A stretch of DNA of 43,772 bases. Origin: Helicobacter cetorum (GTDB taxonomy: Bacteria > Campylobacterota > Campylobacteria > Campylobacterales > BB28). The position numbers and the translations under genes were made by a program. Positions 3,752 to 43,533 of the stretch are shown here, in pieces. The notes beneath the pieces were generated by a model. That model ran no database searches. It saw only the letters and a program-made list of their open reading frames with translations, and was not told the origin of the DNA. The stretch covers positions 1-43,772 of the forward strand of contig DZAZ01000008.1 of assembly GCA_022729755.1 (NCBI GenBank), read 5' to 3'. The first letter of the stretch is position 1. Every line of letters starts with the position of its first letter.

Positions 3752-4177
3752 TTATTTTTCCAAATCATAAATAACATCTATTACAAAACTCAAATGTCTA
3801 TTTTCATCTGTAAAATCTGCTATTAACTCATTTTTTAATTCTTTTTCTATCATTTTTATTTTAGAAATTACTATATGTTTTAACTTATTTAGCTTATTTT
3901 GTGCTATATCAAAAACCTCTTCTTCATCTATGCCAAAATATTGATGAATTAAAACATTTCTAAAATTTACTATCTCTCTTTTACTTTTATCAAATAATCC
4001 AGTATCTATTAAGTTTTTTGTTGCTTCACCTATAATTTCAAACTCTCTTACCACACTATCCCAAGCCATATAGTTATATTTAAGCTCACTAGCATCATTA
4101 AAGTTTTTACAAGTTTCTTCTATTTTTGCAATAGCTATCAAAATATCAAATAAAAATAGCTCCTTTACTCTAGGCAT
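3752..4177 (-). CDS. hepT: HepT-like HEPN ribonuclease toxin of a MntA/HepT module (DUF86)
   Basis: All-helical protein of 141 residues with the HEPN nuclease motif R-x4-H-x-Y as RNVLIHQY (Arg73, His78, Tyr80). In characterised MntA/HepT pairs this motif is the RNase active site and the Tyr is the residue that the partner nucleotidyltransferase modifies with AMP to silence the toxin. The ATG lies inside the end of mntA with an 8-base overlap, so translation is likely coupled. Downstream, addA starts after 9 bases. The length is usual for DUF86 proteins and the active site is complete, so it looks functional. Toxin activity is inferred from the family. Confidence 0.88.
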   Translation of the reverse strand: MPRVKELFLFDILIAIAKIEETCKNFNDASELKYNYMAWDSVVREFEIIGEATKNLIDTGLFDKSKREIVNFRNVLIHQYFGIDEEEVFDIAQNKLNKLKHIVISKIKMIEKELKNELIADFTDENRHLSFVIDVIYDLEK

Positions 4178-4460
4178 AAATCATCTCTTTTTCAACTCTT
4201 TTTTTTAAAAAATTTCTCATAGTATCAAAATATCCAATATCTACACTTTTTTGAAATTGCTCTTCTAAATAATATTTTGCTCTTACACGATTAAAATAAT
4301 CTTTTTTATCTATTTCTATGATTGCTAAATCTATATCGCTATCCTCTCTTGCTTCATCTTTTGCATAGCTTCCAAAGAGTGCTACTTTTTTGATACCAAA
4401 TCTATCATAAAGCTCTTTTTGATGTTCTCTTAAAAAGTCTAATATCTCGATTTTTGTCAC
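4170..4460 (-). CDS. mntA: MntA-like minimal nucleotidyltransferase, antitoxin of HepT
   Basis: A 96-residue minimal nucleotidyltransferase with the signature GS-x10-D-x-D: Gly30-Ser31 in LFGSYAKDEA, then Asp42 and Asp44 in SDIDLAI. A third acidic position is present near the end in KSVDIGYFD. In the characterised MntA/HepT systems the enzyme attaches AMP units to the Tyr of the HEPN toxin. It precedes hepT and overlaps it by 8 bases, the standard order. The start is GTG, preceded by AGGA at suitable spacing. The pair sits between mqo and the addA-like gene, all on one strand with gaps of about 20 bases or less, so it may depend on read-through from the upstream genes. Confidence 0.88.
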   Translation of the reverse strand: MTKIEILDFLREHQKELYDRFGIKKVALFGSYAKDEAREDSDIDLAIIEIDKKDYFNRVRAKYYLEEQFQKSVDIGYFDTMRNFLKKRVEKEMIYA

Positions 4461-29421: not shown

Positions 29422-30108
29422 TTGGAGGATATAAATAAGTATAAAAATTTTACAATTTTATATGTTGAAGATAATGAACAAATTAGGAGACAAACTATTT
29501 ATATATTAAAAAAGTTTTTTAATAGTGTTTATGAAGCTAAAGATGGTAATTCTGGCTTAGAACTATATAAAAAATATAAGCCAAATATTGTTTTAACTGA
29601 TATTCATATGCCTGAACTTGGGGGTATGGAAATGGTTAAAGTAATTAGACAAAATGATAAAAATACAAAAATCATCGTACTTAGTGCTTATAGTGATAAA
29701 AAGTTTTTATTTGATGCAATTGAATTTGGAGTTGTAAGTTATATTGAAAAGCCATTGAATATTGATTTATTATTAAAAGCTTTTGATAAATCACTTTTTC
29801 AAATGCAAGAGGTATTGATAGAGTTAAATGATGAGTTTAGTTTTGATTTATCTAAACATTTACTTTTTAAAAATAAAGAAATTATTAAAATTACACAAAA
29901 AGAGATACATATTTTATTTATTTTATGTAGCAATAAAAATTCGATTGTTTCATATGAAGAGATACAAAATTATGTTTGGAAAAATAGCTTTGTAAGTGGT
30001 TCTACTCTAAGAACTACTATTAAATCCTTAAGAAAAAAATTACCATTAAATTCACTCCAAAATATTTCAGGTGTTGGATATAAAATAGTGACTAAAGAGT
30101 ATTTTTAA
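29422..30108 (+). CDS. OmpR-type response regulator
   Basis: A 228-residue regulator. Receiver 10-125 with VEDNE, Asp60 in LTDIHMPELGG, the Ser of LSAYS and Lys of YIEKPLN. Residues 135-228 form a winged helix (ITQKEIHILFIL, STLRTTIKSLRKKL, ISGVGYKIV). There is no kinase gene beside it, so its partner is unknown. The start is TTG after GGAG; a TATGAT box at 29383-29388 could be its promoter. Its last 17 bases overlap the end of the converging asnB-like gene. Confidence 0.87.
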   Translation: MEDINKYKNFTILYVEDNEQIRRQTIYILKKFFNSVYEAKDGNSGLELYKKYKPNIVLTDIHMPELGGMEMVKVIRQNDKNTKIIVLSAYSDKKFLFDAIEFGVVSYIEKPLNIDLLLKAFDKSLFQMQEVLIELNDEFSFDLSKHLLFKNKEIIKITQKEIHILFILCSNKNSIVSYEEIQNYVWKNSFVSGSTLRTTIKSLRKKLPLNSLQNISGVGYKIVTKEYF

Positions 30109-31813
30109 AATACTCCCTTGCCCATAACTCTAAATTTATCCATTGCCATATAAAAAATGAGTTTATCTTATCTCCTTTTTTATAATTATTAAATAACTTT
30201 TTAGCTATATCTACATCAATCCAACCTCTATCTTTAAAACTTTGTGAATTTAAGATTTCAATTATTAACGGTTCAAATTTAGTAGCTATCCATTCATTTT
30301 GTGGTGTTTGAATTGAACGTTTTTTTGCAAAAGCAACTTCTTTTGGTATATATTTGCTAGAAAATTCTCTAAGTATTAACTTTGTATTTTCAGCATCTAT
30401 TAATAAATTTGTTGGAAGTGAATAAGCAAACTCAACTAATCTATAATCCAAAAATGGAACTCTAAGCTCTTTTGAGTGCATCATAGACATTCTATCATTA
30501 AATCTCAATGCTCTTGGTACTTTTGTATAAAGTAAATCTGTCATAGCACTATTTTTAACATTTTCATTAAAATAATCTATTTTTGGAATTTGATAAGTTA
30601 AAATATTATCTAACTCCCTTGAAATTCCTTCTATTTTAGAATTTTGAGTTCCATCAATTGAGATTCCATCAAAAGTTAAAGAGTTATTTTTATATTTTTC
30701 ATATCCTAAAAAAATTTCATCAATTCCATTTCCATCTAATAAAACAGTTACACCATATTTATTTGCAAGTTCATATAAATAATAATATCCAATCACGGCG
30801 ATTCCACCAAAAGGTTCAGCTTGAATTTTTACAACATCATAAAGCTTTGAAAAAATATCTTCAAAAGTTAAATCTATAAAATGTTGAGAAAATCCAACTC
30901 TCTCAACTGCTTTTTCAATCCAAGCTTTTTCGCTAAAACCATTATATTCTTGAGTAAAAGTATGTAAATTTAATTTATATTTTTTTACTAAAGATAATAA
31001 TAGTGAAGAATCAAGTCCACCTGAAATATTTAATCCAACATTTACATCAGAAATTAAATGTTTATCAATTAAATCTAAAAACAATTCATCCAATTTATTA
31101 AATATTTCCTTTTTACTTAAACTGTTCTCAATTATATTATTTTCTATAAAATACCATCTATCAATTTTGTAATTAAATGAATCTAAATTAAAATTTAAAT
31201 AACACCCTGATTCTAATCGTTTTACATCTTCAAAAAAAGTGTATTCACCAAAATCATAATTTCCAGTTGTTAAATAAGTTTTAATTGTTTTTTTATCTTC
31301 TTTTATATTTTTTAAAAATATTAAAATAGGAGGAATTTCACTTGCAAAAATAAATTTATTTTTATTAAAAGTGTAATAAAGTTGTTTTATTCCAAATCTA
31401 TCCCTTGCAATAAAAACTATATTATTAATTTTATCAAATATAGCAAAAGCAAACATACCATTTAGCATACTTAACATATTTTTACCATATTTAATAAACA
31501 GTGCCAACAAAATTTCTGTATCACTATTTGTTTTGAACTCATACTCTATACACTTAGTTTTTAACTCTTTAAAATTAAAAATTTCACCGTTAAATATTAT
31601 CTCATAATTAGAACAATTTGAGACCATAGGTTGATTTGCACTATCACTTAAATCTATAATTTTTAATCTTGTATGTGCTAAAAACATTTTTTTTTGATTA
31701 TAAAAATTTATTTTTTGAAAATCTGGGCCTCTATGATAAATTTTATTTAAAGCTAAATTGCAATTATTTATATCAAAAGCTTCTTTTGAAGCTCCCCCTA
31801 ATATTCCACACAT
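30092..31813 (-). CDS. asnB: AsnB-like glutamine-dependent amidotransferase in the glycan cluster
   Basis: A 573-residue protein with both asparagine synthetase B domains. The N-terminal glutaminase has catalytic Cys2 (MCGILGG), YHRGPD and FNGEIFN. The synthetase domain has the ATP-binding loop ISGGLDSSLLL (264-270 core) and, later, MSMMHSKELRVPFLD. Class B synthetases make Asn from Asp, but in surface-polysaccharide loci close relatives amidate sugar carboxylates. Being the last gene of a nine-gene nonulosonic acid cluster, 3 bases after the SGNH gene, it may well have such a role. A housekeeping Asn synthetase cannot be excluded. Confidence 0.85.
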   Translation of the reverse strand: MCGILGGASKEAFDINNCNLALNKIYHRGPDFQKINFYNQKKMFLAHTRLKIIDLSDSANQPMVSNCSNYEIIFNGEIFNFKELKTKCIEYEFKTNSDTEILLALFIKYGKNMLSMLNGMFAFAIFDKINNIVFIARDRFGIKQLYYTFNKNKFIFASEIPPILIFLKNIKEDKKTIKTYLTTGNYDFGEYTFFEDVKRLESGCYLNFNLDSFNYKIDRWYFIENNIIENSLSKKEIFNKLDELFLDLIDKHLISDVNVGLNISGGLDSSLLLSLVKKYKLNLHTFTQEYNGFSEKAWIEKAVERVGFSQHFIDLTFEDIFSKLYDVVKIQAEPFGGIAVIGYYYLYELANKYGVTVLLDGNGIDEIFLGYEKYKNNSLTFDGISIDGTQNSKIEGISRELDNILTYQIPKIDYFNENVKNSAMTDLLYTKVPRALRFNDRMSMMHSKELRVPFLDYRLVEFAYSLPTNLLIDAENTKLILREFSSKYIPKEVAFAKKRSIQTPQNEWIATKFEPLIIEILNSQSFKDRGWIDVDIAKKLFNNYKKGDKINSFFIWQWINLELWAREYFKNTL

Positions 31814-31816
31814 TAA

Positions 31817-32824
31817 CTATTCCTTGGTATTGCATATTTTTTTATAAATTTCCATTTTAGTTTCAAAATTTTCTTTTGTAACAAAAAATTCATTATTTTT
31901 ATTCAACAATATATCAACAATATACTTCGTGGCATCTTTTGAAATATGAGTTGGATTTGTAAAAAATTCAGGTTTATTTGAAACATCAGGTATAAATGCT
32001 AAATCATAAAAACCACTAATATTAGTTAAAAATTCATTTCTTAAAGAAACTGTTAAATTATAATCCATTTTATTAAGATACTCTTGCATAAAAGTAGATG
32101 TAAAATATGTCACTTCTATATTATTTTTTTTAGAAAATTCATCAATTTTTGACAAATAATTCAGCATTTGTATTGAAAATTCTTGTCCATTTTTGATACT
32201 ATTCTTACTTTGTCTTGCGATATCTTTTAAGTTATTATCAAAATTTGTAATGTCTTTTTCTTTATACATTGCAAAACCATTTTCACTAACATAACTATTA
32301 AAATTTAAAAATACATTATTTAAAACCATTGTAACAGAGGCAAATAGCTTATCTATTGAAAATAATTTCAAATAATTAAGAATAAATTCATAATTAGAGT
32401 TTAAATCCATTACAAATCTATTTTCATAAACACTATTATTATCACTAAAACATTGAAAATCAATTAAATAATATATTTTATTAATATTCTCTATTTGCTT
32501 TTTAGATAAAGTATTCAAAAAATTATAAACACTAATAGGATGACCATAAATTGGGTATATATTTAATACATTATCATTTAATAATTCTGAATCTATTTTT
32601 CTTGACCTTGAAGTTCCAAAAACTAAACTATATTTGTCGCTATTTAATTTTTCAAGTAAAACTTTCGTACTTAATTGTGTTTGTTCAAATTTATAATTAT
32701 TAATACCATCAATTTTAATTAAATTAGTTTCATAATATGGATCTAAAATAATAACGATTAGAAAAATGAATACGGCAACAATGGATGTAAAAACAAAAAA
32801 ATTATATACAAATTTTTTTCCCAT
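31817..32824 (-). CDS. Membrane-anchored SGNH-hydrolase-like partner of the MBOAT protein
   Basis: A 335-residue protein with one N-terminal membrane helix (about 8-27) and a periplasmic body. FGTSRSRKID (Ser72) resembles the nucleophile block of SGNH proteins. Near the end, TNPTHIS offers the His (293), with Asn where the usual D-x-x-H motif has Asp. Such proteins accompany MBOAT acyltransferases (AlgJ, DltD and PatB-type partners) and move the acyl group to the final polymer. It starts 8 bases after the MBOAT gene. The role in O-acylation of a surface glycan is inferred from pairing. Confidence 0.65.
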   Translation of the reverse strand: MGKKFVYNFFVFTSIVAVFIFLIVIILDPYYETNLIKIDGINNYKFEQTQLSTKVLLEKLNSDKYSLVFGTSRSRKIDSELLNDNVLNIYPIYGHPISVYNFLNTLSKKQIENINKIYYLIDFQCFSDNNSVYENRFVMDLNSNYEFILNYLKLFSIDKLFASVTMVLNNVFLNFNSYVSENGFAMYKEKDITNFDNNLKDIARQSKNSIKNGQEFSIQMLNYLSKIDEFSKKNNIEVTYFTSTFMQEYLNKMDYNLTVSLRNEFLTNISGFYDLAFIPDVSNKPEFFTNPTHISKDATKYIVDILLNKNNEFFVTKENFETKMEIYKKICNTKE

Positions 32825-32832
32825 AAAAAACC

Positions 32833-34275
32833 TTAAAAATTAAAATATAAAAATTCACTATGTTTTTTTAGTTCAAAAATTGCATATAAAAACATTAAAG
32901 CTATTATAAAAGACTTCTTTCTTTCAGATAAATTATATCTAATAAAATAATCTTTATTGGGCAAAAAAGTTAAAATAAACCCAAATAAAACCCATATAAC
33001 TATAATATGAAAGTTCCCAAAAACTTGCCCAAATCCACTAAAAACTATACCATATTCTTTTAAAAAAAATAATTGTTTTTCTAAAGAAATAGGAAATGAT
33101 AAAATTGTAAATCCAAACATAGCTTTTAATATTCCTATAGCTTCCTGCAAATCTTTCGCTCTAAAAAACACCCACGAAACATTAATAAAGTTAAAAGTGA
33201 TAAACCAAGCTAAAAATCTATTCATCTTGAAACCTAATTCACTCCAAATTCGATGAATGACAATGGCAATTCCGTGTATTACTCCCCAAATAACAAACAT
33301 CCAACTAGCTCCGTGCCAAAGTCCACCTATCAAAAAAACACTAAAAAGATTTAAATAATTTCTATATTTTCCAATACGATTTCCACCAAGAGGAATATAA
33401 ATATAATCTTTTAAGAATCTACTTAAAGTTATATGCCATCTTCTCCAAAAATCTTGAATATCTAATGATTTGTATGGAGAATTAAAATTTATTGGTAATT
33501 TAATATTAAATAAAAGAGATGTACCAATCGCCATATCAGTATAACCACTAAAATCAAAATAAATTTGAAATGTATAACTAAGACTTGTTACCCATCCTTC
33601 CATAAAATTTAAAATATTTGCATTATCAAATCCATTTGTTGCCCATATTGCAAAAGTATCAGCAATCACAATTTTTTTAAATAATCCAATTGAAAATATA
33701 AACATACCTAAAGCTATATTTTTATAATTTTTAACTAAATTATTAACTCTACTAAATTGAGGCATCATTTCTTTATGATGAACAATTGGTCCAGCAATTA
33801 ATTGAGGGAAAAATGTAACAAAAAGTGCATAATTTAAAAAATCATACTCTTTTGTTTCTCCTCTATAACTATCAACTAAATAGGCAATTTGTTGAAAAGT
33901 AAAAAAACTAATTGCTAAAGGGAGAGTTAAATGGAGTAAATCCATTTGTGTATTTAATGTGTAATTCATATTTTTTATAAAAAAGTCTACATATTTAAAA
34001 TACCCCAATAATATTATATTAGCTAAAATTCCAATTGAAAGTATATATTTATTATTAATTTTTTTATTAAAGCTATTTCCAATTGTATAATTAAACATCA
34101 TAGAAGCTAATATTAAAGGTAAATAAATAGGATTCCACCAACTATAAAAAAATAAAGAAGAGAATACTAAAAATGACTTTCCTCCTAAAATCAATCTTTT
34201 TGAGTTTAAATAAAAGTAAATAAAAAATGTTATTGGCAAAAATAAAAATATAAATTCATAAGAGTTAAATAACAT
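32833..34275 (-). CDS. MBOAT-family membrane O-acyltransferase (AlgI-like)
   Basis: A 480-residue protein with about ten or more membrane helices. It has the MBOAT family core: DFSGYTDMAIG, QDFWRRWHITLSRFL, YIPLGG and the catalytic His in GLWHGASW. AlgI-type members take an acyl group, mostly acetyl, from a cytoplasmic donor across the membrane for transfer to a polysaccharide. It overlaps neuC by one base and is followed by its SGNH-like partner. In this cluster the likely target is the nonulosonic acid or the glycan that carries it. Confidence 0.88.
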   Translation of the reverse strand: MLFNSYEFIFLFLPITFFIYFYLNSKRLILGGKSFLVFSSLFFYSWWNPIYLPLILASMMFNYTIGNSFNKKINNKYILSIGILANIILLGYFKYVDFFIKNMNYTLNTQMDLLHLTLPLAISFFTFQQIAYLVDSYRGETKEYDFLNYALFVTFFPQLIAGPIVHHKEMMPQFSRVNNLVKNYKNIALGMFIFSIGLFKKIVIADTFAIWATNGFDNANILNFMEGWVTSLSYTFQIYFDFSGYTDMAIGTSLLFNIKLPINFNSPYKSLDIQDFWRRWHITLSRFLKDYIYIPLGGNRIGKYRNYLNLFSVFLIGGLWHGASWMFVIWGVIHGIAIVIHRIWSELGFKMNRFLAWFITFNFINVSWVFFRAKDLQEAIGILKAMFGFTILSFPISLEKQLFFLKEYGIVFSGFGQVFGNFHIIVIWVLFGFILTFLPNKDYFIRYNLSERKKSFIIALMFLYAIFELKKHSEFLYFNF

Positions 34276-35429
34276 TAGTAAGTGTTCCTTTTTTTTAATA
34301 TATTTAAATCAATTGTAGCTAAAACCTCTGCTATCTTTTCTCCAGCATCACCATAACCAAATATTTTATCTGATTTATATTTTTTATGAGATAATTGTCT
34401 TTTTATTTTTTCTAAAATATCGTGTCTTTCATAAGTTGAAAAAATAACATTTTCACCATGTTCTCTTCCTTCTTGTCTATCACCTATAATTACAGCAGGA
34501 GTTCCTAAAAATGAACACTCCCTAATAAAACTACTAGAATTTCCAACTACGCAAAAAGCATTATTTAAGACTCTTGCATAAATTTCAGGTGAAAAATTTT
34601 TAAAGTATTGAAAATTCTCCTGCATATTAAGTTCTCTAAATTTTCTAATACCACCTGCTACATCATCACTTCCAGCATCTATATTTGGCCAAAGTATTAC
34701 TTTTTGAATATTTTTTAACTCTTTTAGGGCATGTAAACTTTCTGTTATTTGTTCTCTACCTTGTCCATAACTAGTAGTAACAGGATGTTGAGAAAGTAAA
34801 ATATAAGGTTTTTCCCAATCAGTTTGGATTCCAACTCCACTATATTTTAGCATTAACTCATTATCTATATTCAAATTTTCATTTTTTAAAATATCCATTG
34901 CAGGACAACCAAAATTAAAGATATATTTTGGGTCTTCACCCATTTTTATAAGTCTCTTTTTAGATTCTTCAGTTGATGGAAAATGTAAATCGGAAAGTTT
35001 TGTAATAGCATGTCTAACTCTCTCATCAATATTTCCACTAATTTCACCACCTTGAATATGTACAAGTTTAATATTTAAATATGATGCAGCAATTGCTGTT
35101 GCCATAGTTTCAAACCTATCAGCAACAGTTACAACTAAATCTGGTTTTAAATCTTCAAACACATTTGAAAGTTCCATTATTCCAAGACCTGTTGATTTTG
35201 CTTGAGTAGCTAATGTTTCGCCCTCAATAACATAATAAAGTGAACGAATTGGAGAAAAACCATCTTTTTTTAAAACATCTACAGCTTTTCCAAATCTATC
35301 AAGCATCATAGAAGCTCCAACAACTATTTGAAGTTCAATATTTTCTCTTTTTTGAAGTGCTTTTAATAAATATTTAACCCTCCCATAATTTGCTCTACTT
35401 GCAACTACAACACATATTTTTCTTTTCAA
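34275..35429 (-). CDS. neuC: Hydrolysing UDP-sugar 2-epimerase (NeuC/LegG type)
   Basis: A 384-residue enzyme of the UDP-GlcNAc 2-epimerase fold. Hydrolysing members convert UDP-GlcNAc to ManNAc and UDP (NeuC), or UDP-di-N-acetylbacillosamine to its 2-epimer (LegG). Visible marks: VVVASRANYGRVKYLL at the start, TVADRFET, HIQGGEISGNIDERVRHAIT, and GNSSSFIREC near the end. The start is TTG overlapping the neuB stop (TTGA), so the two are coupled. No bacillosamine-type genes are nearby, which leans towards ManNAc as the product, but that is inference. Confidence 0.9.
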   Translation of the reverse strand: MKRKICVVVASRANYGRVKYLLKALQKRENIELQIVVGASMMLDRFGKAVDVLKKDGFSPIRSLYYVIEGETLATQAKSTGLGIMELSNVFEDLKPDLVVTVADRFETMATAIAASYLNIKLVHIQGGEISGNIDERVRHAITKLSDLHFPSTEESKKRLIKMGEDPKYIFNFGCPAMDILKNENLNIDNELMLKYSGVGIQTDWEKPYILLSQHPVTTSYGQGREQITESLHALKELKNIQKVILWPNIDAGSDDVAGGIRKFRELNMQENFQYFKNFSPEIYARVLNNAFCVVGNSSSFIRECSFLGTPAVIIGDRQEGREHGENVIFSTYERHDILEKIKRQLSHKKYKSDKIFGYGDAGEKIAEVLATIDLNILKKRNTY

Positions 35430-36430
35430 TATAAATCCTCTTTATTTAAAAACTCTTGTGCTTTTTTTGAAATTTTTAATTTTTTACCAATAACACTCTT
35501 ATACTCTTTTGTAGAGATTCCACAACCAGAGGGTTTTTTACTTTCTAAATCTTCAAAAGTTATTATATCACCTTCATTTAAATCTCTATTAATAGCCAAA
35601 GATTTTCCAAAAATTTTGTTCATTGTGGCAAATTCTAAATTATTATCTTTATCTATTAGATTTGAGTTTGCTTCATCTATGAATCTAATTCCTTCAACTA
35701 ATTGTTTAATTTCATCAATTTGGAGTGAAGATGTTGCATCTGGGCCAAACATTCGTTTATCAAAAACTGCATGTATCTCTATTAGTGAAGCACCAAGTGC
35801 AACAGCTGAAAGTGAGGCATAAATCATACCAGAATGGTCAGATAAACCTATTTTTTTATTGTATCTCTCTTGCATCTGCTTAATTACATTTAATCCAACT
35901 TTATTTGCAGGAGTTGGATACATAGATGTACATTGAAATAAACTAATACTAACTTTAAAAGATTCTAAAAATTTAACTGCTTCATCTAACTCTTTAAAAC
36001 TACTCATTCCTGAAGAGAGTAAAATTTCTTTTTTTGTTTTAGCAACTTTTTCTAATAATAAAAAATTTTCTACATCGCCTGAACTTATTTTATATCTTTT
36101 AATTCCCATCTCTTCCAATAAATCTACCGCTTCTAGTGAAAATGGTGTACTCATAAATTCAAGCCCCACATCTTCACAATGTTTTTTTATATCTCTCCAC
36201 TGCTCTTTTGTAAACTCCATTCGCTTCCAATAATCAAAACGAGTCTTATCTACATACGAAAAATTTACTCTAAACGGCTCTTTTTCGCTACTTTCGGCCT
36301 TTGCAATATGAGTTTGAAATTTTATTGCATCAATACCAGTCCTTGATAAGGCATCAATGTAAGAGTGTAGTATCCCTAAACTTCCATCGTGTGCTTGAGC
36401 AATTTCTGAAATTATAAAAGTTTTTTCCAA
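35426..36430 (-). CDS. neuB: Nonulosonic acid synthase (NeuB family) with SAF domain
   Basis: A 334-residue enzyme that condenses a 6-carbon amino sugar with phosphoenolpyruvate to form a 9-carbon acid (sialic, legionaminic or related). The barrel domain has SEIAQAHDG, AIKFQTH, STPFSLEAVDLL, KISSGD and GLSDHSG. The last 60 residues form the SAF (antifreeze-like) domain with LAINRDLNEGDIITFEDL. EIAQAHDG replaces the more common E-x-G-x-N-H-x-G, so this is a divergent subtype and the exact product should not be assumed. The start is TTG after GGTGA. It lies between the PhyH and neuC genes. Confidence 0.9.
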   Translation of the reverse strand: MEKTFIISEIAQAHDGSLGILHSYIDALSRTGIDAIKFQTHIAKAESSEKEPFRVNFSYVDKTRFDYWKRMEFTKEQWRDIKKHCEDVGLEFMSTPFSLEAVDLLEEMGIKRYKISSGDVENFLLLEKVAKTKKEILLSSGMSSFKELDEAVKFLESFKVSISLFQCTSMYPTPANKVGLNVIKQMQERYNKKIGLSDHSGMIYASLSAVALGASLIEIHAVFDKRMFGPDATSSLQIDEIKQLVEGIRFIDEANSNLIDKDNNLEFATMNKIFGKSLAINRDLNEGDIITFEDLESKKPSGCGISTKEYKSVIGKKLKISKKAQEFLNKEDLY

Positions 36431-36450
36431 ATTTCACCTTTATTAATAAT

Positions 36451-37503
36451 CTATTTTACTATTTCATAATTTTTTAAAAATATTTTTTGTAATTTACTCA
36501 TTTTATTAACTTCTTTTTCATCTATTAGTTGATTTTTAGATGTTTTATTCCTTTTCTCAAATGATAATCCTCTAAAATTAACTCTTATAGTATCTCTATA
36601 TTTATTCTCTTTATCTCCAAATTTATCCCAATTAGGACCTTTATGAAAACCATTAACATCAACAATTGCAACTGTTGCTTTTTTTCCATAAAAAGTAACC
36701 CAATTTTCTCTTGGATACTCTTTCTCTACCTCTTTATCACTTATCCTTCCATAATTTTCATTAATTCCTAAGTCAAAATTAGTTCTAGGTATGCAAGATT
36801 TCACATCGTGTTTATGAGAATTTGGAACAAATGTTAATGGTCCCCTTTTTCCATCTATATCTATTAAGTGTACAAAAACTTGAATAACATCATGCTCATC
36901 ACTATCTTTATGAAAGTTACTTGCTTCAATTGGTTCATCTTGTGGAAAATTTCTCATTACAAGAGAACTATGTTCTGGAACATATCCTAAATAGTTAGTT
37001 ACAATTTTTAGAATAGATTCATTAAAAAATATTTCTATAACATTTGATATATTTAGTAAAGGATTTTCTATAATGATATTTTGCTCAAATGCTTCAATTT
37101 CTTCATAAGAAAAGCCATCTAATGTAGGAATCCTTCCGTGTGAAACATTATAACCAGCACTGAAATTAATTTTTAAATTTTTAAATAATTTATCAGCTTT
37201 TTCATCTATCAAGTTAATTAATTCATCACTAAAAAAATTATTAATCACTGTATAGCCTTGCTTTTTTAAATTATCTATATGAGTTTGTTCAAACTCGTTT
37301 GGTTCAAAAAGATTAATACTATCTTTAAAAACTTTTCTATTTTCTCTATTTGCTATTTTTTTAGATAAAAATCTTCTAATTTTACATATACAACTATAAA
37401 GTGCTGGAAAACTTCTAATTGTTTTTAAAATTGGGTTTGGTTTACTATTTGGATTATACTTTACAGCACTTTTTAACTCTTGTATTCTCTCTTGACTTAA
37501 CAT
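36451..37503 (-). CDS. PhyH-like Fe(II)/2-oxoglutarate dioxygenase in the glycan cluster
   Basis: A 350-residue protein of the phytanoyl-CoA dioxygenase superfamily. The iron triad is visible: His198-x-Asp200 in NFHKDSD and distal His287 in VNGFHKGP, with Arg303 or Arg307 (YRDTIRVNFR) to hold 2-oxoglutarate. GPLTFVPNSHKHD is a typical family strand-turn. These enzymes hydroxylate many substrates. Its position between the methyltransferase and neuB genes, 20 bases from neuB, points to a modified sugar as substrate. The first 60 residues are basic and not part of the core. ATG with a perfect GGAGGAA upstream. Confidence 0.83.
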   Translation of the reverse strand: MLSQERIQELKSAVKYNPNSKPNPILKTIRSFPALYSCICKIRRFLSKKIANRENRKVFKDSINLFEPNEFEQTHIDNLKKQGYTVINNFFSDELINLIDEKADKLFKNLKINFSAGYNVSHGRIPTLDGFSYEEIEAFEQNIIIENPLLNISNVIEIFFNESILKIVTNYLGYVPEHSSLVMRNFPQDEPIEASNFHKDSDEHDVIQVFVHLIDIDGKRGPLTFVPNSHKHDVKSCIPRTNFDLGINENYGRISDKEVEKEYPRENWVTFYGKKATVAIVDVNGFHKGPNWDKFGDKENKYRDTIRVNFRGLSFEKRNKTSKNQLIDEKEVNKMSKLQKIFLKNYEIVK

Positions 37504-38547
37504 TTATTCCTCCTTTTTTAATAGGATATGAATTTCTGAAGAAGTTTCTTTTTTATCTAACTGAAGTTGTAATGTATCAATTAAGGGTAAAAATTTTTTA
37601 TCAAAATTATTTAATGTATTTAAAGGTTGATTATTTTTTTCCATCATCACTCTTAAACTTCTATATAAATCGTGAATATCTGAACTAAACCACCATTCAG
37701 CTTTAATTTTAAAATTATACATATTTGCCAAATAATTTAGAGATTCTTTTGTATAAAGATGAGTGTGACCACCATATAAAACTCTCTCAAAAACATCAGG
37801 AAAAGCTAGTTGAAAATATGTACTTAAATTAAATAAAGGTACAGCTAAATAGAAATACTTAATATTTTTATTTTCATTTATAGCTTCAAAAAAAGAAGTT
37901 GGAGATTGTAAATGTTCTAATACCATAATTGCTGATAGCACATCAACTTTTGCATTTTTTATATAATTTATAGTATCATTTAACTCAATAGCTTTTAATT
38001 TATTAGTTTTTAAAATTTCATTTCCAATATCTACTTGACTTTTAGAAACTTCAATTCCTTCAACTTTCTCAATATTAAATTCTTTATACATAGCATATAC
38101 AAGATGACCTACTCCACATCCAACATCTAAAAATGAACTCTTTTGTATATTTACATTATCTTCTTTCAAAGATTCCAATAAAAAATTAACTTTAGGTGCA
38201 TAAACATTTTTAACTTTATTTAAATAGCTTTCTATATCTATTCTTTGATACTCTCTTCTATAATCATTTGGATTATCTTTTGTGTAATTAAACTCCAAAA
38301 ACTCATCTGTATCTTCAAATCCACCATTTAAATGTCCACAAGTTTTACATTGATAATACTCTATTCCTTGTCTTATCAAAGAGATTTCATTTAAATTACT
38401 ATTACATATTTTACAATTTAATCTTTTGGGTTGACATTTATAAAAATTTATTGACTTTTTTTCTTCTTTTACTAATTTATCATTTTGTTCTGAAAAATAA
38501 CTTTTAATAGCTAAAATATCTCCTATACTTTTTCCATATTTTTTCAT
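37504..38547 (-). CDS. Zinc-ribbon SAM-dependent methyltransferase
   Basis: A 347-residue protein. Residues 45-70 hold two CxxC pairs (CKIC at 45-48, CKTC at 67-70) forming a zinc ribbon, followed by a class I methyltransferase with SAM-binding motif FLDVGCGVGHL (139-149), IEVSKSQVD and VLEHLQSP. Zinc-ribbon plus methyltransferase is the layout of many sugar-methylating enzymes in polysaccharide loci. It overlaps neuA by 4 bases (ATGA) and its stop lies directly next to the PhyH start, so it is fully embedded in the cluster. Substrate unknown; a sugar or glycan is inferred. Confidence 0.82.
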   Translation of the reverse strand: MKKYGKSIGDILAIKSYFSEQNDKLVKEEKKSINFYKCQPKRLNCKICNSNLNEISLIRQGIEYYQCKTCGHLNGGFEDTDEFLEFNYTKDNPNDYRREYQRIDIESYLNKVKNVYAPKVNFLLESLKEDNVNIQKSSFLDVGCGVGHLVYAMYKEFNIEKVEGIEVSKSQVDIGNEILKTNKLKAIELNDTINYIKNAKVDVLSAIMVLEHLQSPTSFFEAINENKNIKYFYLAVPLFNLSTYFQLAFPDVFERVLYGGHTHLYTKESLNYLANMYNFKIKAEWWFSSDIHDLYRSLRVMMEKNNQPLNTLNNFDKKFLPLIDTLQLQLDKKETSSEIHILLKKEE

Positions 38548-39239
38548 TTTTGACCTTGTAATAACTTTTTTGCTTTTTTGAAATCTTCAATAGTATCAAT
38601 ATTTACACTTTTTTCTTTTGGCATTACAAAAGGAAGTGTTTTTTCAGTCATAAGTGATTCACTTTTTAAAAATAGTTCAGTTTTTATCATATAAATAGCG
38701 CCATTTGCTAAATAAGCTTTTGGTAAATCTTGCCTTCTTGTAAATGGATACTTGTCATTTATGGCTCCTTGTAAGTAGCCATCTGAATTTACAATATAAG
38801 CTTTTAATATTTCAATATCAGGTGAAACAACAGAAATTAAAGCATTTGCATCTTGTTCTAAAAAAAACTTAACTGCATTATCAATATCATTACTATCTCT
38901 ACAAGGAGATGTTGGCTGTAAAATTACAACTATATCAAAATTTTTACCTTTAGATGATAATTCATTTAAAACTTGAGTTATTACAGGCATCGTTGAAGCT
39001 TTGTCAGTTGCTAACTCTTTCGGTCTATTTATAATTTCAGCACCAAATTTTTTTGAAATTTCTAAAATCTCTTTATCTTCACTTGAAACTATCGTTGTAT
39101 CAATTAAATTAGAATTAAGTGAAGCTTCTATTGTATAAGCTATTAAGGGTTTTCCATTTAAATCTTTAATATTTTTTCTTGGAACTCCTTTTGAGCCTCC
39201 TCTTGCAGGAATTATTGCTAAAATTTTATATTTTTTCAT
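38544..39239 (-). CDS. neuA: CMP-nonulosonic acid synthetase (NeuA family)
   Basis: A 231-residue cytidylyltransferase that activates a 9-carbon acid with CTP. The signature IIPARGGSKGVPRKNIKDLN is at the N-terminus. LQPTSPCRDSNDIDNA and the YPFTRRQDLP region match the family. I use the second ATG (39239), which gives MKKYKILAIIPARGG, the usual family start. An ATG 12 bases upstream is possible. Either way the start lies inside the end of the glycosyltransferase gene, so the two are coupled. With NeuC and NeuB it completes the route from a UDP-sugar to a CMP-activated acid. Confidence 0.9.
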   Translation of the reverse strand: MKKYKILAIIPARGGSKGVPRKNIKDLNGKPLIAYTIEASLNSNLIDTTIVSSEDKEILEISKKFGAEIINRPKELATDKASTMPVITQVLNELSSKGKNFDIVVILQPTSPCRDSNDIDNAVKFFLEQDANALISVVSPDIEILKAYIVNSDGYLQGAINDKYPFTRRQDLPKAYLANGAIYMIKTELFLKSESLMTEKTLPFVMPKEKSVNIDTIEDFKKAKKLLQGQK

Positions 39240-40668
39240 AACTATCTTCATTTTTTTGTAATTCTAAAATTTTCTCTAATCCAATGGATATGTGTTTTTC
39301 AAATTTATCATATAGCGGAAATCCACGTTGATAGAAGAAATTTATCATTTTATTGTTTTCTTCCTCTTTCTCTTCATTTGAAATTTCAAAATTTAAAAAA
39401 TCTTCAATTTCATAAAATATATTTACCATATTATTTAATGATTTAATTAGCTTTGAATCTGTGTATATATAATCGTTTGTTAATAAAAAATATTTTTTAC
39501 CAAATGCTACAGCTTCAAATAAAGTTGTACCACCAAAACCTATTATTAACTCTGATTTTTGTATTAAATCTTTGCCACTAATACTACTATTCAAAAGTAT
39601 AACATTATTTAATGATAGAATTTTTTTATAAAATGAAATTCCTCTCATACCATATCCAAGAGGATGCTCTTTTACCACTAAAATATATCCTAGTGGCAAA
39701 GATTTAGAAATATTAAAGATAATTTCTAATTGATTCATAAAATATGGTGCTCTTGAAGACGTTGAGGCTTCTGGTTGAATTTGAAGTGGAAAATAGAATA
39801 TTTTTAATCCATATTTTATATTATTAGTTTCAATAAATTTTTTAGCAAATAATAAAATAAATCTATTATATGCTCTATTTAGGTTTGCAAATAATTTATT
39901 GCAAATTGAAGGTTTATCAATATTAAGAAACTTCCTTATTTTTTGATTTTTATTTTCATAACCAAATAACATAAATTTTAACATATTAGCATTAAGAATA
40001 TTGGGAGATATTATTCCTAAAAAACCTTTTTTAACATCTTTTCGTTTTTTTGTATACTCTTTAAAATGTGCTTTATTATCATAATTTTTTATATGTTCTT
40101 TTTTAGAATCCTCAATTACCTCTTTTTTAGTAATATAATTATTTAAAGGAGTACATCCTAAACCTTCATTGATATAGCAAGTTTGATTATCAACTATCCA
40201 ATGTGGATGAAAAGCTAAACATTTTTTATTAAAATGTTCAGAAAGTAAATATCCAAGTGTAGAAATAAAATTATCTGCATAGCCTCCAAAAACTATTTTT
40301 GTATTTGGGATATATTGTTCAATAAATAAAGTATAACTCTTAATAAAAAACATCATATCATCATAAGATAAACTTTTATTTCCCAAAGTTTTTTCAATTC
40401 CAAAATAGTAATTAGATATAAATCTTTCCGTTACAATGGCTCTCATAAAATTCACATTTTTATATTTATTTTGAAATTCATGTATTGAATAACTTTCTAT
40501 ATAACCAAAGTTTTTTTCAAGAAAATTTTCATAAGATTCTGAATTTAAAATATTACTTTTTCTATAAGTTAATATTTTATACTTAATATTTCTATTTAAA
40601 TGTTTGGCTACTTCACTCAAAGTATTATCTAATGAATAAGAAAAATTTGAAATAAATAAAATATCCAT
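39226..40668 (-). CDS. Capsule-type (Kdo/sialyl-like) GT-B glycosyltransferase, tentative
   Basis: A 480-residue cytoplasmic protein. Its C-terminal half resembles the Capsule_synth group (KpsS/LipB-like): FYFPLQIQPEAST (about 291-303), VVKEHPLG and IIGFGGTTLFEAVAFGKK, a nucleotide-sugar binding pattern of GT-B enzymes. The N-terminal half is poorly conserved. It heads the cluster, just before neuA, so it is the best candidate to transfer the CMP-activated sugar or to build the acceptor. Start: ATG at 40668 with GGAG 10 bases upstream; a TTG 15 bases earlier contains that GGAG. No other sialyltransferase family is visible in the cluster. Confidence 0.65.
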   Translation of the reverse strand: MDILFISNFSYSLDNTLSEVAKHLNRNIKYKILTYRKSNILNSESYENFLEKNFGYIESYSIHEFQNKYKNVNFMRAIVTERFISNYYFGIEKTLGNKSLSYDDMMFFIKSYTLFIEQYIPNTKIVFGGYADNFISTLGYLLSEHFNKKCLAFHPHWIVDNQTCYINEGLGCTPLNNYITKKEVIEDSKKEHIKNYDNKAHFKEYTKKRKDVKKGFLGIISPNILNANMLKFMLFGYENKNQKIRKFLNIDKPSICNKLFANLNRAYNRFILLFAKKFIETNNIKYGLKIFYFPLQIQPEASTSSRAPYFMNQLEIIFNISKSLPLGYILVVKEHPLGYGMRGISFYKKILSLNNVILLNSSISGKDLIQKSELIIGFGGTTLFEAVAFGKKYFLLTNDYIYTDSKLIKSLNNMVNIFYEIEDFLNFEISNEEKEEENNKMINFFYQRGFPLYDKFEKHISIGLEKILELQKNEDSYEKI

Positions 40669-40710
40669 CAAGTAAATCTCCAAAAAAATTTAAAAAAAGA
40701 GTATCAAAAT

Positions 40711-41319
40711 TTAACTTAAATATCGATACTCCCTAATCTTTGCCTTTAAATCCTTAGCATTCCATAAATCGCTTATAATAGCCACCATATCGGCACCTGC
40801 TTCAATCAACTCTTTTGCATTTATAGAGCTTATCCCACCTATTGCACAAATTGGAATACTCAATTTCTCTTTTGCATTCATCAAAACTTCTTTATCTACT
40901 ATTTTTGCATTTGGTTTTGTAGTTGAGTTAAAAAATGAGCCAAAAGCCACATAATTAGCCCCTTCTTCTTGCATTTTATGGGCATATTCTACATCGCCAT
41001 AACAAGAGACACCTATGATTTTATCTTTGCCTAAAATTTTTCTTGCATCTTTTAATTTTATATCATCTTTGCCTATATGCAATCCATCAGCCCAGATTTT
41101 AGCCACTAAATTAACCCTATCATCAATTATTAATTTTGCATCGTAATCTTTACATAAGTTTAAAATATCTTTCGCAATCGCTTCAAGTTCGCCATCACTT
41201 AGAGTTTTATCTCTAAGTTGAACAATTTTTACTCCAGCTTCAAGTGTATCTCTTAAAATAGATAATATGTTTGAATATGGAGTTAATTTTTCATCGGTAA
41301 TTGCATATAAGCCTCTCAT
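40711..41319 (-). CDS. thiE: Thiamine phosphate synthase ThiE
   Basis: A 202-residue TIM-barrel enzyme joining the pyrimidine and thiazole parts of thiamine. Family marks are GLYAITDE, VQLRDKTLSDGE, LIIDDRVNLV, GLHIGKDD, GVSCYG, YVAFGSFFNSTTKPNA and AIGGISSINA. It starts 2 bases after the purL stop, so it is part of that operon. No TPP riboswitch was seen before it, which fits expression from the purL promoter. The pairing may relate to the purine pathway intermediate AIR, which feeds the thiamine pyrimidine. Confidence 0.93.
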   Translation of the reverse strand: MRGLYAITDEKLTPYSNILSILRDTLEAGVKIVQLRDKTLSDGELEAIAKDILNLCKDYDAKLIIDDRVNLVAKIWADGLHIGKDDIKLKDARKILGKDKIIGVSCYGDVEYAHKMQEEGANYVAFGSFFNSTTKPNAKIVDKEVLMNAKEKLSIPICAIGGISSINAKELIEAGADMVAIISDLWNAKDLKAKIREYRYLS

Positions 41320-41321
41320 TT

Positions 41322-43511
41322 TTATAAATCTTTCTCTACAATCTTTGCAAAAGTATTGAAATAAATATCTTTTAATTTTGAAATTTCCATCTCAACTTCA
41401 TCAACCACAAATTTATCTTTGCAAACTTCACCGATTTTAACTACTTCAATATCAATTCTTTGAGCTAGTTTTTCAAATGCTTCACCATCTTCAACTTCCA
41501 CAATTGCTCGGCTTAAACTTTCACTAAAAATATTTTGAGCTAAATTTGTTTCAACTTTTAGCCCAAAATTACTAATCGCACACATTTTAGCTAAAGCAAT
41601 CGCAACTCCACCAACATTCACATCTTTTGCACTTTCAATCAAACATTTAGCATTAGCCTCTTGTAATAATTTCCAAAGTTTAAGTTCTCTTTTATATTTA
41701 ATTTTTGGCATTTTTCCTGCGATTTGATTATAAAGAGCTTTTAAATATAAACTTCCGCCAAATTCACTTCTAGTTTTGCCAATTAAATAGAGTGAATTTC
41801 CCTCTTTTTTGAGCTTAGAATTTATTATTTTTTTAGGCTCATCAATACGTCCAACCATCGCAATTGATGGGGTTGGATAAATGCTAACTCCATTTGTTTC
41901 ATTATAAAGCGATACGTTTCCACTCACAACAGGAGTATTTAAAGTTTCACAAGCTTTTTTTATCCCCTCACACGACTTTGCAAATTGCCACATAACTTCA
42001 GGGTTTTGTGGATTTCCAAAGTTTAGACAATCTGTAATTGCAAGTGGAATTGCGCCTTTTACTGCTACATTTCTACCACTTTCCATTACAGCTGCGGCAC
42101 TTCCTTTTTTAGGGTTAATGTAGCAAAATCTAACATTACAATCAGAACTAATAGCAAGAGCTTTGCCGTTTTCTTTAATTCTAATCACACTGGCGTCAAG
42201 GCTTCCTCCAGCTTGATTTGTGTTTATTTGTACCATTGAGTCATACTGCTCATAAATCCAGGCTTTATCTACAACTTCTATATGAGAAAATAATCTTTCA
42301 AATGCTTCTTGATTTGAAATTTCTTTATCTAAAGTTATATTTTTAATATTTTCTAAATATTTTGGTTTTTGAATTGCTCGTTCTAGTACAGGTGCTTCTT
42401 CGCTAACTGGTGCAACAGGCACATTTGCAACCAATTCTCCGTGCCAAAAAAGCTCCATAACTCCCGTATCAGTCACTTCTCCAACAACTGCAACATCAAG
42501 CTCATACTTTTGAAAAATCTCAATTACTTTCTCTTCGTACCCTTTTTTTGCACAAATTAACATTCTCTCTTGAGATTCGCTTAGCATCAGTTCATATGGA
42601 ACCATTGCTTCTTCTCTCATCGGGACTTTGTCAAGGTGCATCTTCATCCCGCTTCCACTTCTTCCAGCCATCTCAAAACTACTCGAAGTTAGCCCAGCAG
42701 CTCCCATATCTTGAATACCAACAATATAATCAGTTTTAAATAGCTCCAAACAAGCCTCTAATAAAAGCTTTTCAGTAAAAGGGTCGCCAACTTGTACCGT
42801 TGGACGAAGTTTTTTTGACTCTTCGCTAAAGCTATCACTACTCATAACAGCACCACCAAGCCCATCTCTTCCCGTTTTACTTCCAACATAAATTACAGGA
42901 TTGCCGATACCTTCAGCCTTTCCATAAAAAATTTCATCGCTTTTAGCAATTCCAAGTGAAAAAGCATTTACTAAAATATTGCCCTCATAACAATCTTCAA
43001 ATGTAGTCTCTCCTCCAATTGTTGGAACTCCCATACAATTGCCATATCCTCCAATTCCACTTACAACACCTTTTAGTAAATATCTGTGTTTAGCTCCAAC
43101 TTTATCATCACGGCTAATATCAGCAAATCGGATTGAGTTTAAATTTGCGATTGGTCTAGCACCCATTGTAAAGACATCTCTAAGTATTCCACCAACTCCT
43201 GTAGCTGCTCCTTGATATGGCTCGATGAAACTAGGATGATTGTGACTTTCCATCTTAAATACTGCAGCCATTCCACCGCCAATATCGATTACTCCAGCAT
43301 TTTCACCAGGTCCTTGAATTACCCACGTGGCTTTTGTTGGAAATCCTCTTAAATATTTTTTGCTTGATTTGTAGCTACAATGCTCACTCCACATTGCCGA
43401 AAATATGCCTATTTCTACTAAATTTGGCTCTCTTTTTAAAATCTCTTTAATATGTTCATAATCTTGCTCACTTAACTTATGAGAAGCTAAAATTTTATTT
43501 AAATCTTGCAT
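41322..43511 (-). CDS. purL: Phosphoribosylformylglycinamidine synthase subunit PurL
   Basis: A 729-residue small-type PurL that makes FGAM from FGAR with ATP, with ammonia supplied by PurQ. Motifs: [56 protein letters not shown] and [10 protein letters not shown]. The length matches PurL of the three-part PurLQS type. I use the ATG at 43511 because GGAGAG lies 5 bases before it; a TTG directly upstream is less likely. PurQ and PurS are not in the window. It heads the run purL-thiE and then the glycan genes. Confidence 0.95.
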
Positions 43512-43533
43512 CAAACTCTCCTTTATTTTTGAA

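Follow-up and report, generated by a model that had tools for sequence, protein, structure and literature searches.

What does the compact cluster of sugar genes on contig DZAZ01000008.1 of Helicobacter cetorum (assembly GCA_022729755.1) make, and on which molecule do its unusual accessory enzymes act? We analyzed a stretch of 43,772 nucleotides of this contig, here called the window, in which nine neighboring genes run on the minus strand from position 40668 to 30092. An earlier note, made from the letters of the window, had described them as a compact NeuC-NeuB-NeuA operon that also holds a transferase and five further genes, from a member of the Campylobacterota, and gene families assigned with hidden Markov models (Pfam, curated NCBIfam/TIGRFAM cut-offs) and gene order agree with that description. 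The genes are packed tightly: in transcription order the junctions measure −26 bp (glycosyltransferase/neuA), −4 (neuA/methyltransferase), 0 (methyltransferase/PhyH), +20 (PhyH/neuB), −4 (neuB/neuC), −1 (neuC/MBOAT), +8 (MBOAT/SGNH) and +3 (SGNH/AsnB). We think that this is probably an operon for the synthesis, tailoring and attachment of one nonulosonic acid (NulO) of a surface glycan, a reading that rests on homology and gene order. The operon itself is real, conserved and rare, and its combination of genes was found in only one other genome.

The chain from NeuC through NeuB and NeuA to the glycosyltransferase is, judged by sequence, well supported as a NulO route. The NeuC-type hydrolyzing UDP-sugar 2-epimerase (34275 to 35429) scored above the curated cut-off of TIGR03568 (379 vs 235.9 bits) and matched solved relatives of both substrate kinds with similar scores, namely GNE (4zht, 222.7 bits) and the N,N'-diacetylbacillosamine-type enzyme 5xvs (213.5 bits). 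It would hydrolyze and epimerize a UDP-N-acetylhexosamine to N-acetylmannosamine or a relative, which the NeuB-type synthase (35426 to 36430) would condense with phosphoenolpyruvate. The resulting acid would be activated to the CMP-sugar by the NeuA-type cytidylyltransferase (38544 to 39251), a CTP_transf_3 protein with an RGGSKG motif, whose best score was with the PseF model (189 bits, under the cut-off of 205.7).

NeuB stands apart in its classification. It matched PF03102 yet fell under both equivalog cut-offs, those of NnaB (TIGR03569, 300 bits vs 399.65) and PseI (TIGR03586, 221 bits vs 340.25). On the NnaB model, related proteins from a third genome, G252, and from a plasmid of Rhizobium sp. 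WL3 scored 311 and 346 bits, and the other, canonical NnaB-type NeuB of the window's genome scored 521 bits. The KIxSG motif of the window NeuB has the glycine and lacks the phenylalanine of the PseI motif KIASF; glycine is found at this place in the neuraminic acid (Neu) and legionaminic acid (Leg) pathways and phenylalanine in the pseudaminic acid (Pse) pathway (PMC7371886). The catalytic residues of Neisseria meningitidis NeuB (K53, K129, S154, S213, H215, H236 and D247) are all kept. Among the 40 sequences of a tree, the proteins from the window, the congener described below, G252 and Rhizobium sp. WL3 formed one clade (support 100/99), separate from PseI and from the common NeuB of Campylobacterota, with a relative position that is unsure owing to long branches. 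All four clade members have lysine where N. meningitidis NeuB has Arg314, a residue of the SAF domain that we take to contact the N-acetyl group, and 35 of the 36 other sequences in the tree have arginine. Given the score under the NnaB cut-off and the separate clade, the window NeuB appears to be a divergent synthase and not a plain sialic acid synthase, which is one change to the earlier reading.

The window's genome encodes a PseI-type NeuB, beside a homologue of the window glycosyltransferase, and the canonical NnaB-type NeuB on other contigs (L028:3236-5555, L029:7609-8613), so the window NeuB is a third, different synthase. A search of this genome for DegT aminotransferases returned one strong LegC-like protein on another contig (387.7 bits vs a cut-off of 420), and a Leg-type substrate for NeuB is therefore possible.

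The first gene of the operon (39226 to 40668) encodes a 480-residue GT-B glycosyltransferase. Its start is the ATG at 40668, where the earlier note had placed it, with GGAG upstream of this codon; a TTG at 40683 is an alternative. The protein had no Pfam match above cut-off. It resembled the NCBIfam BFO_1060 transferase family (NF046086; E 6e-9, 35.5 bits, under the curated cut-off of 200), which we take to be derived from Tannerella forsythia. Homologues in the plasmid collection sit in pse clusters (Klebsiella, Mesorhizobium, Mariluticola and Acinetobacter baumannii records), where they adjoin pseI or stand one to few genes away, and a further homologue adjoins the PseI-type NeuB within the window's genome (contig C14). 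A structural model built from a two-sequence alignment was useless (predicted local distance difference test (pLDDT) score 33), and the protein was therefore placed by profile. A profile of its homologues matched KpsC structures (E 3.4e-9), and six of the seven profile members matched Pfam Capsule_synth (E up to 0.1), the window protein weakly (0.09); it also has a KEHP motif. KpsC is a beta-Kdo (3-deoxy-D-manno-octulosonic acid) transferase, i.e., a user of a CMP-ulosonate. Together, the pse-cluster homologues and the KpsC match make this enzyme best read as a candidate CMP-nonulosonate transferase, which would pass the NulO to a cytoplasmic acceptor, most likely a lipooligosaccharide (LOS) core or a lipid-linked glycan.

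Three enzymes encoded in the operon would modify the sugar in the cytoplasm. The PhyH-type Fe(II)/2-oxoglutarate dioxygenase (36451 to 37503; PF05721, 28.4 bits vs a cut-off of 22) carries the HxD...H...R signature as H198, D200, H287, R303 and R307, all invariant with the congener, and may add a hydroxyl group. The zinc-ribbon class I S-adenosylmethionine (SAM) methyltransferase (37504 to 38547), a Methyltransf_23 protein with two CxxC pairs (residues 45 and 67) and a DVGCG motif, would methylate, perhaps at that same oxygen. The AsnB-type glutamine amidotransferase (30092 to 31813) exceeded the TIGR01536 cut-off (377.7 vs 267.1 bits), has Cys2 (MCGILG) and a PP-loop SGGLDS at 264, and matched the AsnB structure 1ct9 (E 2e-37). 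AsnB chemistry converts a carboxylate to an amide; among the operon's own products the C1 carboxylate of the NulO is the evident candidate, which the enzyme may turn into a carboxamide. We infer that all three act on the operon's own NulO, because PhyH adjoins neuB in both species that have the set, because the operon contains no other sugar genes and because of the AsnB chemistry. Solved structures were uninformative for PhyH and, for the methyltransferase, gave matches limited to the SAM fold.

Across 399 genomes of the order, strong matches to a PhyH profile were confined to the window's genome and its congener; relatives were found neither in viral contigs nor in plasmids, and narrow pattern searches of 84,980 genomes had the congener's own record as their sole match. 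A literature search linking dioxygenases with nonulosonic, pseudaminic or sialic sugars found nothing among the papers available, an absence that proves little. On contig C57 of the window's genome, a second operon contains PhyH and zinc-ribbon methyltransferase genes (L006:7465-8316, L006:10547-11500) adjacent to genes for radical SAM proteins and an aminotransferase function, a hint that the hydroxylase and the methyltransferase tend to occur as a pair.

The remaining two genes predict a later step on the other side of the membrane. The MBOAT O-acyltransferase (32833 to 34275; PF03062) matched the DltB structure 6bug (E 2.5e-28), has WHG, the motif of the catalytic histidine, at 320 and ends in FLYFNF, which fits the acyl-shuttle motif FXYXXF whose function in PatA/PatB and DltX has been demonstrated (PMC12148441). 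Its neighbor (31817 to 32824) had no Pfam match; it has an N-terminal hydrophobic helix, and the top fold match of its model was DltD (6pfx, E 8e-4), with S72 and H293 invariant among four homologues. By sequence and model, the two are predicted to be a DltB/DltD-like O-acyltransferase pair. Since the operon has no DltA/DltC carrier gene, acyl-CoA is the likely donor. After export of the glycan, the MBOAT would take the acyl group onto its C-terminal tyrosine, and the membrane-anchored DltD/SGNH-like partner would hand it on, in the periplasm, to a hydroxyl group of the glycan. Profile, fold and structure matches strengthened the GT-B, MBOAT/SGNH and AsnB calls of the earlier note. Its picture of a single sugar bearing all four decorations needs to change: hydroxylation, methylation and amidation may fall on the NulO, and acylation would be expected in the periplasm, on the glycan after its export.

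Flagellin bearing Pse or Leg is common in the Campylobacterota, which raises the question of whether the operon is instead a flagellin glycosylation island whose NulO is put directly on flagellin in the cytoplasm, in a Maf-like manner as in Campylobacter. A flagellin gene does lie ~15 kb from the cluster in the congener, but the operon has no Maf gene, no flagellar gene lies near it within the window, its glycosyltransferase resembles polysaccharide CMP-ulosonate transferases, and a periplasmic MBOAT-SGNH pair would miss a flagellin-bound sugar, since flagellin leaves the cell through the type III channel. We consider this very improbable. An LOS or lipid-linked glycan acceptor fits better than flagellin, given the KpsC-like transferase, the periplasmic acylation and the locus in G252.

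We compared the operon with the only congener in the genome set, whose cluster contig is record JADGEE010000007 of Campylobacteraceae bacterium isolate BB28 (G001). The earlier note had set conservation of the tailoring genes with neuBCA in relatives as a check, and this one available congener does carry them along with neuBCA: it has homologues of all nine genes, with best identities of 71-90% and largely the same order. The glycosyltransferase is 74% identical, NeuA 76-77%, the zinc-ribbon methyltransferase 81%, PhyH 75%, NeuB 86%, NeuC 90% and AsnB 78-79%. Downstream of neuC, the congener's contig breaks off within the MBOAT gene, of which 97 residues can be compared (74%). Another contig starts with AsnB and a DltD-like gene that is only distantly related (29%), and these two contig ends presumably adjoin; closer MBOAT (77%) and DltD-like (71%) copies lie within an inserted block. 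Three neighborhoods are kept: PhyH-neuB-neuC-MBOAT, the glycosyltransferase and neuA followed by an extra methyltransferase and the zinc-ribbon methyltransferase, and the DltD-like gene with AsnB. The ratio of nonsynonymous to synonymous differences (pN/pS) was 0.13-0.39 across the nine closest pairs, and the nine genes are under purifying selection. The shared homologues and these ratios indicate something other than a random arrangement. The genomic site differs, with the congener's glycosyltransferase gene beside a clpA-like gene. An empty-site comparison left the insertion site unreadable, the congener's thiE being on another contig with other neighbors. Recent horizontal exchange between the two genomes is not claimed: the ranges of identity for the cluster (71-90%) and for other orthologue pairs (54-84%) overlap broadly, with NeuB and NeuC slightly above the latter.

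The congener also gives grounds for a different division of labor, in which the NulO stays plain and PhyH, the methyltransferase, AsnB and the MBOAT-SGNH pair decorate other sugars of a mixed surface glycan, made by genes elsewhere. About 19 kb of other genes are inserted between its zinc-ribbon methyltransferase and PhyH genes: a heptose-type kinase/cytidylyltransferase, a phosphatase, an isomerase, radical SAM proteins, an epimerase, a split transketolase, a glycosyltransferase and two MBOAT/DltD-like pairs. The counterparts of the tailoring genes are thus embedded among genes for other sugars, no such genes accompany the NeuB and NeuC from the window clade in G252, and exported polymers are the targets of MBOAT-SGNH pairs; in T. 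forsythia, the methyl groups likewise sit on sugars other than the NulO. Against this, the window operon has no other sugar-making gene, PhyH directly adjoins neuB in both species, and the whole set is common to the two. This division of labor is conceivable, though we hold it to be rather unlikely.

The large sugar block in and beside the conserved operon of the congener (L012:1-2580, L005:3574-20000, L027:2826-14397) contains several radical SAM proteins, two of them with B12-binding domains, split transketolase pairs, heptose-type genes and epimerases, and suggests a separate unusual sugar pathway. Within it, two MBOAT genes (L005:4533-5981 and L005:7020-8471) are nucleotide-identical over codons 41-360 and diverge sharply in the C-terminal part before the partner gene, with a third copy at the contig break; the pattern resembles gene conversion in the core combined with interchangeable ends and partner genes.

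Beyond the congener, the next best NeuB in 200 genomes of the order was 36% identical, and NeuC had a single further relative in 299 genomes of the order (50%), G252, again the sole one in 397 of the phylum. The G252 locus encodes NeuB (63%), NeuC (50%) and NeuA (36%) near heptosyltransferase-like genes, kinases and a ligase-like gene, and looks like an LOS core locus; the 20 kb examined there held no PhyH, zinc-ribbon methyltransferase, MBOAT or AsnB gene, which qualifies the earlier reading of the cluster. The best plasmid relative was that of Rhizobium sp. WL3 (NeuB 39-40%, NeuC 50%).

Is any comparable system already known? The closest is the protein O-glycosylation cluster of T. forsythia (pseBCFHGI, gtfS, mtfJOY, asnB, wecBC), in which the NulO transferase and the methyltransferases were tested by mutants (PMC6120980, PMC6388019). 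Both loci join NulO synthesis, a NulO transferase (by homology in the window), one or more methyltransferases and asnB in one operon, and the earlier statement that no characterized pathway has this exact set has to be weighed against this cluster. Neither PhyH nor MBOAT-SGNH was met in the parts of the T. forsythia descriptions at hand, where no search was aimed at them. T. forsythia has a Pse or Leg pathway, a Wzx flippase, wecBC and several glycosyltransferases, whereas the window has the NeuCBA trio in an operon lacking a Pse/Leg pathway, Wzx and wecBC. The NeuCBA enzymes of N. meningitidis and Campylobacter jejuni are of the same three types and share the NeuB catalytic residues, but the window differs from them in a NeuB under the NnaB cut-off, with lysine at the Arg314 place and in its own clade, and in a NeuA nearest the PseF model, under its cut-off. 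The NulO cluster on the Rhizobium sp. WL3 plasmid and the G252 locus carry NeuB and NeuC of the window clade (NeuB 40% and 63%, NeuC 50%); unlike the window, the stretches examined contain no PhyH, zinc-ribbon methyltransferase homologue, MBOAT or DltD-like gene, and WL3 carries an N-acetyl sugar amidotransferase, a methyltransferase and acyltransferases of its own. With DltB-DltD and PatA-PatB the window pair shares the MBOAT core with WHG, FXYXXF and a DltD-like partner, and it departs from them in having no adjacent DltA/DltC and a partner without the aspartate of DxxH. The parts of the operon are of known kinds; what is new, as far as the collections searched go, is how they are combined, together with the NeuB clade.

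Several observations weigh against a single tailored NulO. The full gene set occurs in two genomes only, both of them draft assemblies; that of the window reaches 88% completeness, and in the congener the copy is spread across two contigs. The heptose-type and other sugar genes within the congener's operon mean that AsnB, the methyltransferases and the acyltransferases may serve other residues. In T. forsythia, the methyl groups are on N-acetylmannosaminuronamide (ManNAcCONH2) and galactose and not on the NulO (PMC6120980, PMC6388019), and asnB is tentatively ascribed to the acetamidino group of Pse. The changed residues of NeuB do not fix its substrate. The model of the SGNH-like partner has low confidence (pLDDT 60), and asparagine (N290) replaces the usual aspartate of DxxH in all four homologues. 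No flippase, polymerase or ligase is among the nine genes, and the acceptor is not visible from them.

Directly upstream of the operon on the same strand, and not mentioned in the earlier note, lie thiE (40711 to 41319) and purL (41322 to 43514), and the gap between thiE and the glycosyltransferase gene (40669 to 40735, minus strand) folds into a hairpin followed by T runs (minimum free energy −16.4 kcal/mol, z −2.6 vs shuffles), a possible terminator of the purL-thiE unit. A response regulator gene is convergent downstream of the operon. A promoter scan of the operon was uninformative, with matches no more numerous than in shuffled sequences. Elsewhere in the window (3752 to 4460), two small genes lie side by side that, judged by eye, may form a HEPN-MNT toxin-antitoxin pair: one product looks like a HEPN protein (RNVLIH), the other like an MNT nucleotidyltransferase (GSYAKDEAREDSDIDL).

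Overall, a surface-glycan operon for one tailored NulO is our favored account, and a bolder version of it can be formulated. In it, the NeuB/NeuC clade would make a NulO that is neither N-acetylneuraminic acid (Neu5Ac), Leg nor Pse and is recognized by the lysine in place of Arg314, and PhyH, the methyltransferase and AsnB in this genus would convert it to a hydroxylated, methylated and C1-amidated residue; we regard this version as speculative and unlikely as a whole. If true, the residue would be a nine-carbon sugar without its negative charge. The nine-gene set is small, and its enzymes are testable singly in a laboratory host. NeuB sequence serves to predict the type of sialic-like sugar that a bacterium makes, and a supported NeuB clade with an altered substrate-contact residue, linked in two genomes to a hydroxylase, a methyltransferase and an amidotransferase, points directly to a sugar not yet described and to a possible 2-oxoglutarate hydroxylase of sialic-like sugars.

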